The notes under the pieces: model-generated | What the model saw: only the letters and a program-made list of their open reading frames with translations | Databases searched by the model: none | What the model was told of the DNA's origin: nothing | Source: Clostridia bacterium | GTDB lineage: Bacteria > Bacillota > Clostridia > Oscillospirales > Acutalibacteraceae | NCBI GenBank assembly: GCA_017618135.1 | Contig: JAFZUV010000013.1 | Span: 30,708-94,707, forward strand | Direction of reading: 5' to 3' | Length of the DNA stretch: 64,000 bases | In this document: piece after piece, positions 40,415-46,694 of the stretch | Position numbering within the stretch: position 1 is the first letter of the stretch | How the letters are laid out: every line of letters begins with the position of its first letter | Position numbers and translations under genes: made by a program

Positions 40415-40420
40415 TTGCAT

Positions 40421-40695
40421 AAGGTGACGGGAGTCAAACTCGTTACGGTTTGGCTCGCCGCCCTTTCCCACCTTTCTTGCGTTTATTTTTGTAAGGCGGA
40501 CGCCTTACTGCAAATTGCACGCCGCGCCCTTTTGAAAAAGGTGGCGGCACAAACTTTAAAAACTTAAAACGAGCAAAATTTTTGTTGCGTCAAAGTCGAA
40601 GAGCGCCGATATACCGGCGTATTCGGAGCGATGAGACAAAGCCGGACGAAAATTTTGTCGTTTTTAGCGTGACGGGGTTCGACTCCCGTCACCTT
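40421..40695. repeat. 275-bp palindromic element B with terminal inverted repeats
   Basis: Ends: 40421-40439 (AAGGTGACGGGAGTCAAAC) and 40677-40695 (reverse complement with one mismatch). Internal inverted pairs include AAAACGAGCAAAATTTT (40566-40582) with AAAATTTTGTCGTTTT (40649-40664). The left 77 bases equal copy A at 34436-34512. No transposase and no convincing gene. It fills most of the 490 bases between the Rrf2 gene and iscS. Confidence 0.8.
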
Positions 40696-40839
40696 AAGCA
40701 TAGCGCAATAATCCGAACCCGATTTTAGCGGGCGAATTTCGCGCCCTCCTTTGTTAAAATACTCGGAAATCATAAGCTGATTTCAAAAGTTGATACTATT
40801 ATACAGTAGGTTGATAGGTAAATCAAGTATTTTTGTGCA

Positions 40840-42510: not shown

Positions 42511-43416
42511 ATGAATATAACGCAGCTTAAATATGTTCTCCGGATAGCCGCTTCATCATCTATGCGCGAAGCGTCCACCAAGCTATACATTTCACAACCC
42601 GCCTTGTCTTCAAGCATACGCGAGCTTGAGGATGAACTCGGCATTCTTATTTTTGAGAGAACGAACAAAGGAATATCTCTGACAGACGACGGACGCGAGT
42701 TTTTGACTTACGCGAAAAAAGCAGTCGGACAATATGATATACTCGAGGACCGATACTTATCACACAACGGCGGCAAAGAAAAGTTTTCGGTGTCTACTCA
42801 ACACTACAATTTCGCTATAAAGGCCTTTACATCTGTAATAAAGAAAATGAAACCGGAAAAATATGTTTTTTCGGTTCACGAAACAAAAACCAAAGATGTG
42901 CTTGACGATGTGGGAACACTTAAAAGCGAAGTGGGTATAATATCCTTTTCCGGTTCAAACGAATCCCTTATAAAAAAGCTTTTCCGCGATTATCAGCTGA
43001 ATTTTACGCCTCTAATGAAGAGAGACACCTATGTATATGTGTGGAAAAATCATAAATTCGCCAAAAGAAAAGAAATATCCATAGATGAAATGCGCGAGTA
43101 TCCGTGTGTTTCTTTCGACCAAAGCAATAACGACAGCTTTTATCTCACTGAAGAAGCGATGGCTGACTATTCATTCGATAAAATGATAAAGTCGGACGAC
43201 AGAGCGACCACAATGGAAATAATAGCCGAGCTTGGCGGGTATTCGGTAGGCTCGGGAATGCTGTCGCAAAAAGATTCTATTCTTCAAGGTCTTGTTGCGA
43301 TTAAAATGAAAGAGGAAGACCCGCTTACAATCGGCTGTATAACCAGAAACGGAAGTTCTCTTTCAAGCTACGGAAAAGAATACATAAAAGAACTGCTTAA
43401 ATATAAAGAGCTGTAA
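42511..43416 (+). CDS. LysR-family regulator of probable sulfur metabolism
   Basis: 301 residues. N-terminal winged helix MNITQLKYVLRIAASSSMRE and LYISQPALSSSIRELEDELG; C-terminal LysR substrate-binding domain. It lies between iscU (21 bases) and the Cys/Met leader of metY-cysK, so it may respond to a sulfur compound such as O-acetylserine or homocysteine (inference from place). AAGAGGTT precedes the start. Confidence 0.9.
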   Translation: MNITQLKYVLRIAASSSMREASTKLYISQPALSSSIRELEDELGILIFERTNKGISLTDDGREFLTYAKKAVGQYDILEDRYLSHNGGKEKFSVSTQHYNFAIKAFTSVIKKMKPEKYVFSVHETKTKDVLDDVGTLKSEVGIISFSGSNESLIKKLFRDYQLNFTPLMKRDTYVYVWKNHKFAKRKEISIDEMREYPCVSFDQSNNDSFYLTEEAMADYSFDKMIKSDDRATTMEIIAELGGYSVGSGMLSQKDSILQGLVAIKMKEEDPLTIGCITRNGSSLSSYGKEYIKELLKYKEL

Positions 43417-43470
43417 AATAGTATTTTCAGCGATAAGCAGTGGTTATCACCGATAATAAATTCAAACGAA

Positions 43471-43499
43471 TTTACAAATATTTCCGCTTGCAGTATAAT
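43471..43499 (+). promoter_or_regulatory. Promoter of the leader-metY-cysK operon
   Basis: TTTACA (43471-43476), 17 bases, TATAAT (43494-43499), with the leader-peptide start about 25 bases past the likely transcription start. Confidence 0.8.
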
Positions 43500-43529
43500 G
43501 TGAGTAGAAAAATTAAGGAGGCGCAAGCA

Positions 43530-43679
43530 ATGTCAAAACGAAAAATGAGAAAACAGTATTGCAAAATGTGTTGTCGAATGCTTAAGGCGACGGAGTTCGA
43601 CTCCCGTCACCTTAACTACCGGGCATGTTGTATGGCGGAGGCGTTCTACTGCTTTTGTATGCGCCTTGAAAGTTGTTGA
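43530..43679 (+). CDS. Cys/Met-rich leader peptide of metY-cysK
   Basis: 49 residues from an ATG 8 bases after AAGGAGG (43515-43521). Cys occurs at positions 11, 14, 15, 33, 34, 41, 43 and 49 and Met at 1, 6, 13, 17, 35 and 44. It has its own promoter and is followed by a terminator hairpin and then metY, the layout of an amino-acid attenuator. Codons 18-29 (KATEFDSRHLN region) come from palindromic repeat C, read in frame. The peptide itself probably has no function; its translation reports Cys (or Met) charging. Confidence 0.7.
   Translation: MSKRKMRKQYCKMCCRMLKATEFDSRHLNYRACCMAEAFYCFCMRLESC
43582..43615 (+). repeat. Palindromic repeat, copy C (34 bp, inside the leader peptide)
   Basis: TTAAGGcGACGG-AG and CTCCCGTCaCCTTAA fold around TTCGA. 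The right half equals the right end of element B (GTTCGACTCCCGTCACCTTAA) and the left half its left end. Inserted without breaking the leader reading frame. Confidence 0.75.
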
Positions 43680-43712
43680 CATATTTAAAATGTCAATTCC
43701 GCCCTTGCCCGG
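43619..43712 (+). promoter_or_regulatory. Candidate antiterminator of the metY-cysK attenuator
   Basis: CCGGGCA (43619-43625) is fully complementary to TGCCCGG (43706-43712), and GGCGGA (43634-43639) to TCCGCC (43698-43703); the two helices can stack. Forming them uses bases of the terminator's left arm (from 43709), so the structures exclude each other. The upstream strand covers Cys codons 33-34. A further hairpin, TTGACAT-ATTTAAA-ATGTCAA (43676-43696), spans the leader stop. Confidence 0.6.
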
Positions 43713-43739
43713 GAGCCAAGAAAAGGTCCCCGGTTTTTT
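43709..43739 (+). terminator. Attenuator terminator upstream of metY
   Basis: CCGGGAGCC/GGTCCCCGG with one mismatch and one wobble, loop AAGAAAA, then six T. It lies 59 bases before the metY start and after the leader peptide, so it must be by-passed for metY expression. Confidence 0.8.
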
Positions 43740-43797
43740 ACTGAACCGAAACAAATTATAAGTAACAGCTAACTTAAACAGAAAAGGAGAAATAATC

Positions 43798-45081
43798 ATG
43801 AGTGAATATAAATTTGAAACTTTACAATTACATGTAGGTCAAGAACACGCAGACCGCGAATCGGATTCACGCGCGGTACCGATTTATCAAACGGCAAGTT
43901 ATGTATTTCACGATTCGGCCCATGCGGCGGCGCGTTTCGGGCTTGCAGACGCCGGAAACATCTACGGCAGGCTCACAAACACGACGCAAGGTGTTTTGGA
44001 ACAAAGGGTTGCGGCGCTTGAGGGCGGTACGGCGGCGCTCGCCGTTGCCTCGGGTGCGGCGGCTATTGCCTACACAATAGAGGCGCTCGCGCAAAAGGGC
44101 GATAATATTGTTTCAGCACGGGATATTTACGGCGGCAGCTACAATCTGCTTTCCCATACCCTGCCTCTTTACGGTGTTGATACCACATTTGTAGACATCA
44201 GTAATATTGATGAAGTCCGTGCGGCAATCACACCGGGTACCAAGGCGATTTTTGCCGAAGTTCTTTCGAACCCCGGCAGTGAAGTCGCAGACATTGAGGC
44301 TTTAGCTGAAATTGCCCACGAAAACGGTATACCGCTTGTAATTGACAACACATTCGGAACGCCGTATTTGATTCGTCCTATTGAATACGGCGCAGATATA
44401 GTTGTACATTCCGCCACCAAATTCATAGGCGGTCACGGAACTACGCTCGGAGGTATAATTGTTGAATCGGGTAAATTCAACTGGAAAGCAAGCAAAAAGT
44501 ATCCGAACATAGCAGAGCCCAATCCAAGCTATCACGGTGTTTCATTTTATGACGCGGTAGGTCCGGCGGCGTTTGTGACCTACATAAGAGCAATTCTCTT
44601 GCGCGATACCGGCGCGGCGATTTCTCCGTTTAACGCTTTTCTGCTTTTGCAGGGAGTTGAAACATTGTCGCTCAGACTTGAAAGGCACGCCGAAAACACC
44701 AAAAAGGTTGTTGAGTATCTCGCAAATCATCCTCTGGTGGAAAAGGTAAACCACCCCGCGTTATCCTCCCATCCACAACACGCGCTTTACAATAAGTATT
44801 TCCCAAACGGCGGAGGCTCTATATTCACATTTGATATCAAAGGAGGCAAAGATGAGGCGTGGAAGTTTACCGACGCCCTTGAAATCTTCTCATTGCTTGC
44901 AAATGTCGCCGATGTCAAAAGTCTCATTATCCACCCGGCAACAACCACGCATTCTCAGTTGTCCAAAGAAGAACTGGAAGCTCAGGACATCCACGATAAC
45001 ACTTTGCGGCTCTCAATAGGCACAGAGCATATTGACGATATTATTGCCGACCTCGAAAGAGGATTTGAAGCAATTAAGTAA
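43798..45081 (+). CDS. metY: O-acetylhomoserine sulfhydrylase
   Basis: 427 residues of the Cys/Met PLP family. FETLQLHVGQ, YQTASYVF, substrate motif NIYGRLTNTTQGVLEQRVAA, PLP lysine in VVHSATKFIGGHGTTLGG, and the insertion with PNIAEPNPSYHG typical of MetY rather than cystathionine gamma-synthase. Makes homocysteine from O-acetylhomoserine and sulfide; related enzymes also accept O-acetylserine. AAAGGAG precedes the start. First enzyme gene after the attenuator. Confidence 0.92.
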   Translation: MSEYKFETLQLHVGQEHADRESDSRAVPIYQTASYVFHDSAHAAARFGLADAGNIYGRLTNTTQGVLEQRVAALEGGTAALAVASGAAAIAYTIEALAQKGDNIVSARDIYGGSYNLLSHTLPLYGVDTTFVDISNIDEVRAAITPGTKAIFAEVLSNPGSEVADIEALAEIAHENGIPLVIDNTFGTPYLIRPIEYGADIVVHSATKFIGGHGTTLGGIIVESGKFNWKASKKYPNIAEPNPSYHGVSFYDAVGPAAFVTYIRAILLRDTGAAISPFNAFLLLQGVETLSLRLERHAENTKKVVEYLANHPLVEKVNHPALSSHPQHALYNKYFPNGGGSIFTFDIKGGKDEAWKFTDALEIFSLLANVADVKSLIIHPATTTHSQLSKEELEAQDIHDNTLRLSIGTEHIDDIIADLERGFEAIK

Positions 45082-45155: not shown

Positions 45156-46085
45156 ATGTCAATTTATACATCAGCCGATCAACTTATAGGAAAAACTCCA
45201 CTTCTTGAACTCACACACAGTGAGAAAAAATATAAGCTCAAAGCAAAAATCATCGCCAAGCTTGAATATTTTAATCCGGCAGGTTCGGTTAAAGACAGAA
45301 TAGCCAAGTCGATGATAGACGAGGCAGAAGCTTCAGGGAAGCTTAAAGAGGGTTCTGTCATTATTGAACCGACCTCCGGCAACACCGGTATCGGTCTCGC
45401 TTCGGTTGCCGCGGCAAGAGGCTACCGCCTGATACTTACGATGCCGGAAACCATGTCGGTCGAGCGCCGCCAGCTTATCAAGGCATACGGTGCTGAAATT
45501 GTACTGACAGACGGCACAAAGGGTATGAAAGGCGCTATAGCAAAAGCAAATGAGCTTGCCGCTGAAACGCCGAACAGCTTTATACCGGGTCAGTTTGTAA
45601 ATCCTGCCAATCCTACGGCACACCGCGAGCATACCGGACCTGAAATATGGGAAGATACCGACGGAGAAGTTGATATTTTCGTAGCCGGAGTAGGCACCGG
45701 CGGAACCGTTACGGGCGTAGGCGAATATCTTAAATCAAAAAATCCCGATGTTAAGATTGTAGCTGTTGAACCTGAGACGAGCGCCGTACTTTCGACAGGT
45801 GTTGCGGGTTCGCATAAAATTCAGGGAATTGGCGCCGGTTTTGTCCCCGATGTTCTTAACACCAAGATTTATGACGAAATTATCCCCGTTTCAAACGAAG
45901 ACGCATTCGCCACCGGCAAAGCTATAGGAAACAGCGAGGGTGTTCTCGTTGGAATATCGTCGGGGGCGGCGGTATTTGCGGCAATAAAACTTGCAAAGCG
46001 CCCCGAAAATGAAGGGAAAACCATTGTAGTTCTTCTTCCCGATACAGGAGACAGATATCTCTCAACACCACTTTTTGCCGACTAA
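45156..46085 (+). CDS. cysK: Cysteine synthase A (O-acetylserine sulfhydrylase)
   Basis: 309 residues. PLP lysine in [17 protein letters not shown], phosphate loop [36 protein letters not shown] and [11 protein letters not shown]. Makes cysteine from O-acetylserine and sulfide, which feeds IscS encoded 4 kb upstream. TAAAGGAG precedes the ATG. Co-transcribed with metY (74-base gap without a terminator). Confidence 0.96.
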
Positions 46086-46097
46086 AAAATCAATGTA

Positions 46098-46130
46098 CCG
46101 GCGTCCGTAACTCGGATGCCGGATTTTTAT
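46098..46130 (+). terminator. Terminator of cysK
   Basis: CCGGCGTCCG-TAACT-CGGATGCCGG (10 pairs, one wobble) then ATTTTTAT, 12 bases after the stop. It partly separates the following transporter gene. Confidence 0.75.
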
Positions 46131-46145
46131 AAAAAAGGAATGTTT

Positions 46146-46694
46146 ATGAAAAGCAGTAATTATATCTTTAAAATAAATTTGACTGCCGTCATGGTAGCAC
46201 TCACTTGCATACTTACGATGGCAGTGAGAATCCCGTCTCCAACAAAAGGATATTTAAATCTCGGAGATTGTGCCGTACTCTTCGGAGGTTGGCTATTAGG
46301 ACCGGTCTGGGGCGCAATTGCAGGCGGCGTCGGTTCTTCCCTTGCCGATTTTTTGTCGGGATATCCGGTTTACATACCTGCAACGATGATTATCAAGGCG
46401 CTCATGGCACTTATTATTTCACTTGTCCCATATTTCTTCAATCCCCGCAAAAAAAGCCATTCGCGCGTTGGCTTCTTAGTATGCTCCATAATTGCGGAAA
46501 TCCTGATGGTAGCCGGCTACTACCTTTTTGAAGCAGTTTTTATCGGAGAGGGATTTGTACCTGCGCTTGCAGGCGTTTCCGGTAATACCGTTCAGGGAAC
46601 CGCAGGAATAATCGCTTCATATTTCCTGGTTGAAATTTTCAGCCGAACTGGTATTATTAAGAAGGTACAACAAACGGATTTTGAAAGGAAATGA
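46146..46694 (+). CDS. ECF transporter substrate-binding (S) component
   Basis: 182 residues, about six TM helices: LTAVMVALTCILTMAVRIPS, LNLGDCAVLFGGWLLGPVWG, GGVGSSLADFLSGYPVYIPA. S-components bind a vitamin or similar micronutrient and share an energising EcfAA'T module encoded elsewhere. The substrate is not clear; the place after cysK hints at a sulfur-related or PLP-related vitamin (inference). The ATG at 46146 lies 7 bases after AAGGA. Confidence 0.85.
   Translation: MKSSNYIFKINLTAVMVALTCILTMAVRIPSPTKGYLNLGDCAVLFGGWLLGPVWGAIAGGVGSSLADFLSGYPVYIPATMIIKALMALIISLVPYFFNPRKKSHSRVGFLVCSIIAEILMVAGYYLFEAVFIGEGFVPALAGVSGNTVQGTAGIIASYFLVEIFSRTGIIKKVQQTDFERK

Follow-up and report, generated by a model that had tools for sequence, protein, structure and literature searches.

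A conserved cysteine-codon leader ahead of metY-cysK in Clostridia as a putative transcription attenuator

Directly ahead of the metY and cysK genes of a Clostridia bacterium of the family Acutalibacteraceae lies a short, cysteine-rich open reading frame that is probably the leader of a ribosome-mediated transcription attenuator, one that would sense cysteine through charged tRNA-Cys. The frame and its ribosome-binding site are conserved, together with tandem cysteine codons, a covarying antiterminator, a terminator that overlaps it and sulfur genes downstream, and computed folds suggest that the position of a ribosome would affect which of the two structures forms. Judging from sequence, we regard this as a conserved family of putative cysteine attenuators of Clostridia, undescribed as far as we searched. 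The window referred to below is the whole stretch of DNA that was analyzed, 64,000 nucleotides of contig JAFZUV010000013.1, and all coordinates without a locus name are positions within it.

The leader and its locus

The features of the locus, with their strands, are as follows.

42511..43416, + strand, LysR-family regulator gene directly upstream of the leader (Pfam HTH_1 1.5e-16, LysR_substrate 2.7e-8)
43432..43448, no strand assigned, dyad GATAAGCAGTGGTTATC, read from the sequence, a candidate LysR-type operator
43471-43499, + strand, promoter TTTACA-17-TATAAT with 11/12 matches, aligning with metY locus L011
43516-43522, + strand, Shine-Dalgarno sequence AAGGAGG, read from the sequence; a Shine-Dalgarno sequence is kept in members
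43530-43679, + strand, leader peptide ORF of 49 codons, from the ORF list, relatives and the frame test
43569..43574, + strand, tandem Cys codons 14-15 (TGT TGT), the proposed stall site, with Cys at 14 and 15 across members
43575..43580, + strand, CGA ATG (Arg-Met), nearly invariant, CGA being a rare Arg codon
43582..43615, no strand assigned, palindromic repeat TTAA-GGCGACGG..CCGTCACC-TTAA, 30 bp net with the frame kept, from alignment
43616..43639, + strand, antiterminator 5' arm inside the ORF, from alignment, covariation and folding
43637..43667, + strand, inner hairpin GGAGGCGTT / TGCGCCTT (helix 3), with 88.7% of cells paired in alignment A1 and 86.6% in A3
43698..43715, + strand, antiterminator 3' arm, covarying in A1 and A3
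43709..43739, + strand, intrinsic terminator with six T, its left arm shared with the antiterminator
43798..45081, + strand, metY, O-acetylhomoserine/O-acetylserine sulfhydrylase (TIGR01326, 607 bits, cut-off 495)
45156..46085, + strand, cysK, cysteine synthase A (TIGR01139, 461 bits, cut-off 351)
46116..46694, + strand, ECF transporter S component downstream of cysK (PF07155; best NCBIfam model TIGR04002, below cut-off)

A sequence-only reading of this DNA had described a promoter, AAGGAGG and a 49-codon frame with 8 Cys and 6 Met codons, and all of them lie where it placed them; its assignment of the downstream genes to metY and cysK is likewise supported by TIGR01326 and TIGR01139 scores above the cut-offs. 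Downstream of the leader the order is metY, cysK, the ECF S component and a TIGR01440 protein, while nifU-like, nifS-like and Rrf2 genes lie further upstream besides the LysR-family gene, which is likely a second control layer. Alignment shows the GATAA-N7-TTATC of the dyad to be retained in L011. A promoter scan of the window found 1 site where 1.4 were expected in shuffles, so the promoter match alone proves little; promoter and terminator scans of the window performed no better than on shuffles, and a simple terminator scan did not report the window's terminator on the leader strand. At the gathering threshold an Rfam scan of the window returned tRNAs only.

From these features we infer that the frame is translated, that the ribosome stalls on it, that cysteine is the signal and that its scarcity raises expression. 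RNA polymerase would start at the promoter (43471-43499) and a ribosome at 43530. With Cys-tRNA scarce, the tandem Cys pair at codons 14-15 would hold the ribosome, and its footprint would stop short of the antiterminator 5' arm; the free 5' arm would pair with the 3' arm, the left half of the terminator would be taken up, and metY-cysK would be transcribed. With ample Cys-tRNA the ribosome would proceed over the 5' arm and on to the stop codon, where it would mask the inner hairpin's CGCC strand and perhaps promote formation of a local hairpin within the 5' arm, so that the 3' arm would be left to form the terminator and transcription would end.

Conservation of the reading frame and its codons

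Homologues of metY were collected at 110 loci (L006-L035 from whole genomes and L060-L139 from named contigs). Dropping three duplicates and two loci with less than 250 nt upstream left 105 distinct upstream regions, all 250 nt or longer. A codon-level pattern (Cys/Trp-Arg-Met, then Ser-Arg) matched 38 of the 105 regions, and a covariance model, R1, added L097 and L105. A second, slightly different regular expression returned 38 rows; the frame test used 35 of these, after removal of the false match L139 and the aberrant L080 and L083. Alignment A1 and the folding test additionally lack L109, and L132, missed by the second expression, is in neither set. The element common to these regions reads ATG TGT TGT CGA ATG CTn nnC TCC CGG GCA ..ATGGCnGGGGCGTTCGG.. 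TGCGCCTC.. stop.. GCCATTTGCCCGGGAGCTTT..AAAGC(C/T)CCCGG, with a T-rich stretch.

The window's own frame (43530-43679) translates to MSKRKMRKQYCKMCCRMLKATEFDSRHLNYRACCMAEAFYCFCMRLESC, with Cys at codons 11, 14, 15, 33, 34, 41, 43 and 49 and six Met codons, the start included. A Shine-Dalgarno sequence and start occur in the frame of the Cys codons in 34/35 members, against 1/35 and 0/35 in the other two frames. In 19/35 the distance from the start to the second Cys codon is exactly 42 nt (14 codons); it is 27-54 nt in the remainder, apart from one member that has no start. Across the 35 members the stop codon comes 21-35 codons further on and 22-42 nt ahead of the antiterminator 3' arm, and in 24 of them it falls 11-20 nt past the CGCC-type strand, no such strand being recognised in three.

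At position 14 these 35 leaders have Cys (27), Trp (4), Tyr (2), Phe (1) or Met (1), and at position 15 Cys (31) or Trp (4); position 16 is CGA in 34 and CGG in one (L109, which also has a CGA site), and position 17 is ATG throughout. Because the regular expression specified TG[TCG], Arg and ATG for positions 15, 16 and 17, conservation there is built in; it placed no constraint on position 14, on the start, stop or frame, or on which Arg codon is used. Trp, Tyr or Phe replaces one of the two Cys in 11/35 leaders. Overall, 141 of 1400 leader residues are Cys where composition predicts 51.7, in a set partly selected for Cys. The sequence-only reading had the ribosome stalling at Cys codons 11-15; codons 14-15 are indeed conserved, but Cys 11 lies outside the shared core. 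Beyond that core (MCCRM..SRA..MAGA), much of which overlies the RNA arms, the leader peptides differ, and the window's peptide has no match in Pfam or NCBIfam. The strictest nucleotide conservation in the leader is that of TGTCGAATG.

A3 is a model-made alignment of 60 members that leans to the structure of the model, and in it at least one Cys codon lies within three codons ahead of the Arg-Met site in 54 of 60 rows. The other six comprise L156-L158 and L083:1373, which have CCC or CC and lack the Arg-Met site, and L152 and L164, which have no Cys there. Runs of three or four Cys are present in L196 and L198, both found by a model trained on Cys-bearing members. Against the attenuator reading, the high-scoring leader L169, a minus-strand match, has an ORF that stops directly after Cys-Cys-Arg-Met-Arg, ahead of the antiterminator arm.

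A covarying antiterminator overlaps the terminator

The antiterminator proposed in the earlier reading, CCGGGCA/TGCCCGG with GGCGGA/TCCGCC drawing on the terminator's left arm, was recovered by folding and covaries in relatives. In the window CCGGGCA (43619-43625) pairs with TGCCCGG (43706-43712) and GGCGGA (43634-43639) with TCCGCC (43698-43703); the strands named pair, but the antiterminator is longer than had been stated. The folded transcript 43506-43740 contains both pairings at a minimum free energy of -69 kcal/mol, a stability reached by 3/200 shuffles (z -2.13). Among the 34 sequences of A1 (730 antiterminator cells), 92.2% of cells pair and 11 of 22 pairs show double changes, either value being reached by 0/500 shuffles, while the count of further pair types was reached by 8/500; shifting the partner by 1-3 columns lowers pairing to 28-53%. 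The corresponding figures in A3 are 92.5% paired and 72 double-change cells against 18.5 in shuffles (0/500), and over both alignments such shifts leave 27-53% paired.

A local hairpin that would close the 5' arm (CGAATGC/GCGTTCG) has 81.9% of its cells paired (5/500 shuffles), with two double-change pairs that 288/500 shuffles reach and a number of double-change cells that 11/500 reach. A short CTCC/GGGG alternative is 93.8% paired without covariation, and the GGGGCG strand is absent from L073 and L076. We rejected a pairing, noted by eye, between CGAATG and the CATTTG of the 3' arm, because it is broken in members whose 3' arm is changed (CATAAG in L078 and L129). In the consensus structure the helices are nested, and the model has 0 branch points and no aptamer-like junction.

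The terminator hairpin with six T that the sequence-only reading had placed just before metY-cysK is present, and its helix is 86.8% paired over the 34 sequences, with the usual A.C mismatch and T-rich stretches after it. Covariation in this helix is slight, with one double-change pair that 344/500 shuffles reach. The window's hairpin, at -13.4 kcal/mol, was equalled by 31/200 shuffles and is by itself not beyond chance. What places the element as a whole above chance is conservation, in the form of antiterminator covariation among relatives and retention of the frame.

We modelled the ribosome as a 28-nt mask on the 34 sequences, with equilibrium and not co-transcriptional folds and with a terminator score that is normalised to 8 pairs and may exceed 1. 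Median antiterminator/terminator scores were 0.77/0.15 with Cys 15 in the A site (stalled), 0/1.0 with the ribosome on the 5' arm, 0.14/0.57 at the stop codon and 0.32/0.68 without a ribosome; the means lie closer together (stalled 0.57/0.42, arm 0/0.88, stop 0.38/0.57, no ribosome 0.48/0.50). The stalled state folds the terminator at equilibrium in 9/34 sequences (antiterminator <0.1), and before the terminator is complete the stalled antiterminator is <0.5 in just 2/34. These masked folds suggest that a ribosome at the Cys codons would leave the antiterminator free and that one on the arm would remove it. For the window's own copy the scores were 0.73/0.19 stalled, 0/0.63 on the arm, 0.69/0.20 at the stop and 0.69/0.20 without a ribosome; the stop and no-ribosome states thus fold like the stalled one, and only a ribosome on the arm would switch this copy.

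The window's copy also carries the TTAA-flanked palindromic repeat, which the sequence-only reading had not noted. It sits between CTTAA and CTACCGGGCA, downstream of the Cys codons and ahead of the antiterminator arm, and is absent from every other A1 row. The repeat pattern has two matches in the window's own genome, at 43582-43615 and 40664-40697, and TTAA at the repeat ends was noted for the leader copy. The repeat GGYGACGGRAGTTCGACTCCCGTCACC was seen at both of these places as well as at 40420-40441 on the minus strand and, as a weaker copy, at C12:4490-4526 of the same genome.

Distribution of the leader and the genes behind it

The putative switch is conserved and occurs in many bacteria of gut and rumen. 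R1 scores the window at 97.1 bits, the window being one of its 34 training sequences, and it found 27 genomes with one match each among 394 genomes of the order. A second model, R2, matched 13 of 391 genomes of the class (19 matches), 5 in 398 genomes of the phylum, of which three are outside the class and two of those have three- or four-Cys runs, and, under strict filters and with varied genome completeness, 5 of 70 genomes of the genus, counting that of the window. These draws overlap and each includes the window's genome, and the strict filters applied to searches of more than 40 genomes miss weak matches. One R1 match at 25.7 bits (L165), with an mraZ-like gene downstream by eye, was taken as chance. 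A search of 60 relatives with the leader DNA returned, outside its own genome, only 25- and 39-nt pieces at the metY start, and for this reason we consider the leader too divergent for blastn; the best other match of the 49-residue peptide in the genus had an E value of 0.003. Nine pattern matches in viral contigs yielded none that was confirmed.

Alignment across relatives for Cys codons and compensatory changes was the check that the sequence-only reading had called for, and it found the frame, the tandem Cys codons, the antiterminator and the terminator conserved. Against the reading, L007, L008 and L011, the closest metY relatives that were examined, have no leader and only 5/70 genomes of the genus were matched, so that it is largely Clostridia at a greater distance that provide the support. 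In L007 and L008, whose metY is 90% identical to the window's, metY stands directly after a nifU-like gene and no leader was seen by eye, and L011 keeps the 3' end of the LysR gene, the dyad and the promoter with no leader between promoter and metY. Given close relatives without it, one of them with the flanks kept, the leader behaves like a module subject to gain or loss. At fifteen metY loci that lack it there is no Rfam match, and nothing known was seen there as a replacement. At one locus we observed two divergent leader copies (L083:1373-1516 and L083:3802-3954), before a cysK-like gene and metY.

The genes that the leader would control are those of sulfur amino-acid uptake and synthesis. 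By eye, the first long ORF after the 27 R1 matches is metY in 13 (the window included, and L159 in a shifted frame), a His/Glu-type amino-acid ABC permease in 8, a MetN-type ATPase in 3, and in one each a dicarboxylate-type symporter, an amidohydrolase-like gene and an unrelated gene behind a weak match. The symporter resembles TcyP. When representatives were compared with models, the L140 permease scored above the cut-off of TIGR01726 and below those of the cystine permease PRK15100, GlnP and Ehu models, and the second leader copy of L083 precedes a gene that reads as cysK. Below cut-off were the L154 MetN (TIGR02314 best), the GltP-type L160 symporter and the L155 amidohydrolase, the last with no Pfam match at 1e-10. 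Family f67, found with R2 in the class, has up to three leader copies per genome, which precede NlpA/MetQ-type lipoproteins, metY and cystathionine lyase-type enzymes (L168, L170, L177, L178 and L182 were tested). For the MetN-type and MetQ-type identities the best NCBIfam models score below their cut-offs. Within the genus, L191-L193 have hybrid-like leaders before MetN-type genes (L192 was tested), and L190 has a leader before an ECF S component (L190:1708-2220). TIGR04002 is the best NCBIfam model for the ECF genes of both L190 and the window, below cut-off in each, and the substrate of this S component is probably sulfur-related.

A second uORF before metY shares the CGA codon

In 19 of the 105 upstream regions metY is preceded by a different short frame, type B, which ends in FE.LVRANFRFGRM and is often followed by Cys-Arg-Cys and a stop (L013, L015-L017, L019-L022, L026, L029-L032, L035, L066, L068, L082, L092 and L138). 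A codon-degenerate NFRFGRM pattern matched 7/148 genomes of the class, with six matches ahead of metY-like genes and the seventh within an unrelated gene, and the reversed control matched none. For codon usage we tabulated 23 type B frames, leaving out L021 and L187, which nearly duplicate L015 and L138, and L184, which lies within an unrelated gene. The last Arg codon is CGA in 23/23, the Arg at -8 is never CGA and the Arg at -4 is CGA in 2, and CGA makes up 30/1461 Arg codons (2.1%) in the 110 metY genes. Conservation of NFRFGRM is built in by the search, and that of Arg -8, Leu -10, Phe -13 and the choice of CGA is not; Arg -8 is kept in 23/23 and Leu -10 and Phe -13 in 20/23 each, with synonymous codons. 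By eye these frames have no long antiterminator or terminator, and in 8/25 listed examples neither the motif nor the sequence after it contains Cys. Hybrids with FRCGRML.S and a terminator (L154, L155, L159, L161-L163, L191 and L193), and L166 with FRFGRM, link type B to the leader described above, type A. The type B uORF may be an arrest peptide, and we would guess, as the simplest account of CGA in both types, that a slow CGA codon fixes the pause.

Two further observations concern type B regions. A loose regular expression for CGAATGTG pairing with a CACATT-like sequence ahead of the metY Shine-Dalgarno sequence matched 6/18, with no control. Near the metY promoter, upstream of the type B uORF, an ACCTAC-n-GTAGGT-like palindrome was seen by eye in L016, L019, L030, L033, L066 and others, perhaps an Rrf2/CymR-type operator.

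Alternative readings

The preference for CGA leads to an alternative that we consider unlikely yet worth stating, namely that the same RNA switch is set by a stall from the nascent peptide with a slow CGA before ATG, or by methionine shortage at Met 17. CGA stands in 34/35 type A and 23/23 type B uORFs while the other Arg codons of type B vary; type B residues outside the search pattern are kept with synonymous codons; some controlled genes are of methionine type (metY, MetN-type and MetQ-type); and L152, L164, L166 and L192 retain Arg-Met with no Cys codon immediately ahead. Against this, the Cys run stays where Arg-Met is lost (L156-L158 and L083:1373), runs of 3-4 Cys exist, and the controlled genes include a cystine-permease-like amino-acid ABC permease and a cysK-like gene. 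An extension that we would put forward only with considerable doubt makes types A, hybrid and B one Clostridia family of sulfur-responsive stalling uORFs, built around the slow CGA-ATG pair and the nascent peptide NFR[FC]GRM/MCCRM and arresting on cysteine, methionine or a derivative, with the stall wired to a terminator (A, hybrid) or to the metY start (B).

That the family is a working attenuator of which the window's copy has been damaged by the 30-bp repeat and stuck open is also improbable in our estimate. In its favour, the insertion lies between the stall site and the arm, the arm's first pairs are altered (CTACC in place of CTCCC) and the folds are alike for three of four ribosome states; however, the insertion preserves the frame, GGCGGA/TCCGCC still pairs, and a ribosome on the arm takes the antiterminator to 0 and the terminator to 0.63. 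Conservation of TGTCGAATG and CTCCCGGGCA nucleotides beyond coding needs would fit a plain RNA element, a riboswitch or protein-binding site in which the reading frame is incidental, but the Shine-Dalgarno sequence and start are retained in one frame only, the stop position is kept in most, and the leader has no Rfam match and only nested helices with 0 branch points, which makes this reading very improbable. Equally hard to credit, and if anything harder, is the idea that the product is a small Cys-rich protein with a function of its own, binding metal or thiols, and that the terminator just separates genes: eight Cys in 49 residues would suit such a product, but the peptides differ outside the core, match no Pfam or NCBIfam family, and would render the antiterminator pointless.

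Comparison with known systems

Accounts of how Firmicutes control sulfur amino acids usually centre on CymR, S-boxes and T-boxes. If true, our reading would add to these a cysteine peptide attenuator with its own regulon, covering synthesis (metY, cysK-like and cystathionine lyase-type genes) and uptake (a cystine-permease-like ABC transporter, MetN-/MetQ-type genes and an ECF S component). The covariance model is able to annotate the leader family, the leader association offers a clue to the substrate of the ECF S component, and the near-obligatory CGA-ATG, common to the second uORF with no terminator by eye, raises the question of what stalls the ribosome. A T-box was not matched in the window at the gathering threshold, nor, with E values of up to 1 allowed, at the leader of six relatives, and SAM riboswitch models gave no match in the window or at the leader of these relatives. 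No description of the leader element was found in Rfam, NCBIfam or open-licence PMC papers, and a literature search of the latter with peptide and DNA motifs gave nothing relevant among the best 15 of 22 matches. One paper (PMC13236596) reportedly treats attenuation in Mycobacterium tuberculosis.

One likeness by description is the uORFC-8-2 motif upstream of cysS in Rhodobacterales, which, according to PMC8632094, has tandem Cys usually at uORF positions 14 and 15, a terminator and a proposed sensing of Cys-tRNA. It differs in belonging to alphaproteobacteria, in preceding cysS only, unlike the downstream genes found here, and in having its Cys codons in the first stem. The candidate cysteine leaders of Actinobacteria, as the accessible part of PMC1262725 presents them, likewise place a Cys-codon leader upstream of cys genes, but without conserved terminator hairpins and with Cys runs near the stop codon. 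Peptide attenuators for other amino acids are reported from Firmicutes in the available portions of the sources: a leucine-rich ilv leader in Staphylococcus aureus (PMC5794164) and His leaders (PMC9413887, PMC2965389), the his attenuator being described in PMC9413887. The available parts of PMC8632094, PMC1262725, PMC2965389, PMC11109978, PMC6429828, PMC9413887 and PMC5794164 describe no cysteine leader in Firmicutes.

Type B shares with type A the CGA-ATG and the position before metY, with hybrids between them, and differs in its strongly conserved peptide and in having no antiterminator or terminator by eye. The classical attenuators of enterobacteria (trp, his, leu) combine a short ORF carrying tandem codons for the amino acid under control, an antiterminator overlapping an intrinsic terminator and biosynthetic genes downstream, all of which the Clostridia leader has in common with them. 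It differs in its amino acid, cysteine, in an antiterminator 5' arm that lies inside the ORF just past the stall codons, in the nearly strict CGA-ATG after the Cys codons and in the presence of transporter genes among those downstream. The putative cysteine attenuator of Clostridia follows the classical principle, with a signal that is new for Firmicutes as far as we searched, a new anatomy and a new regulon.
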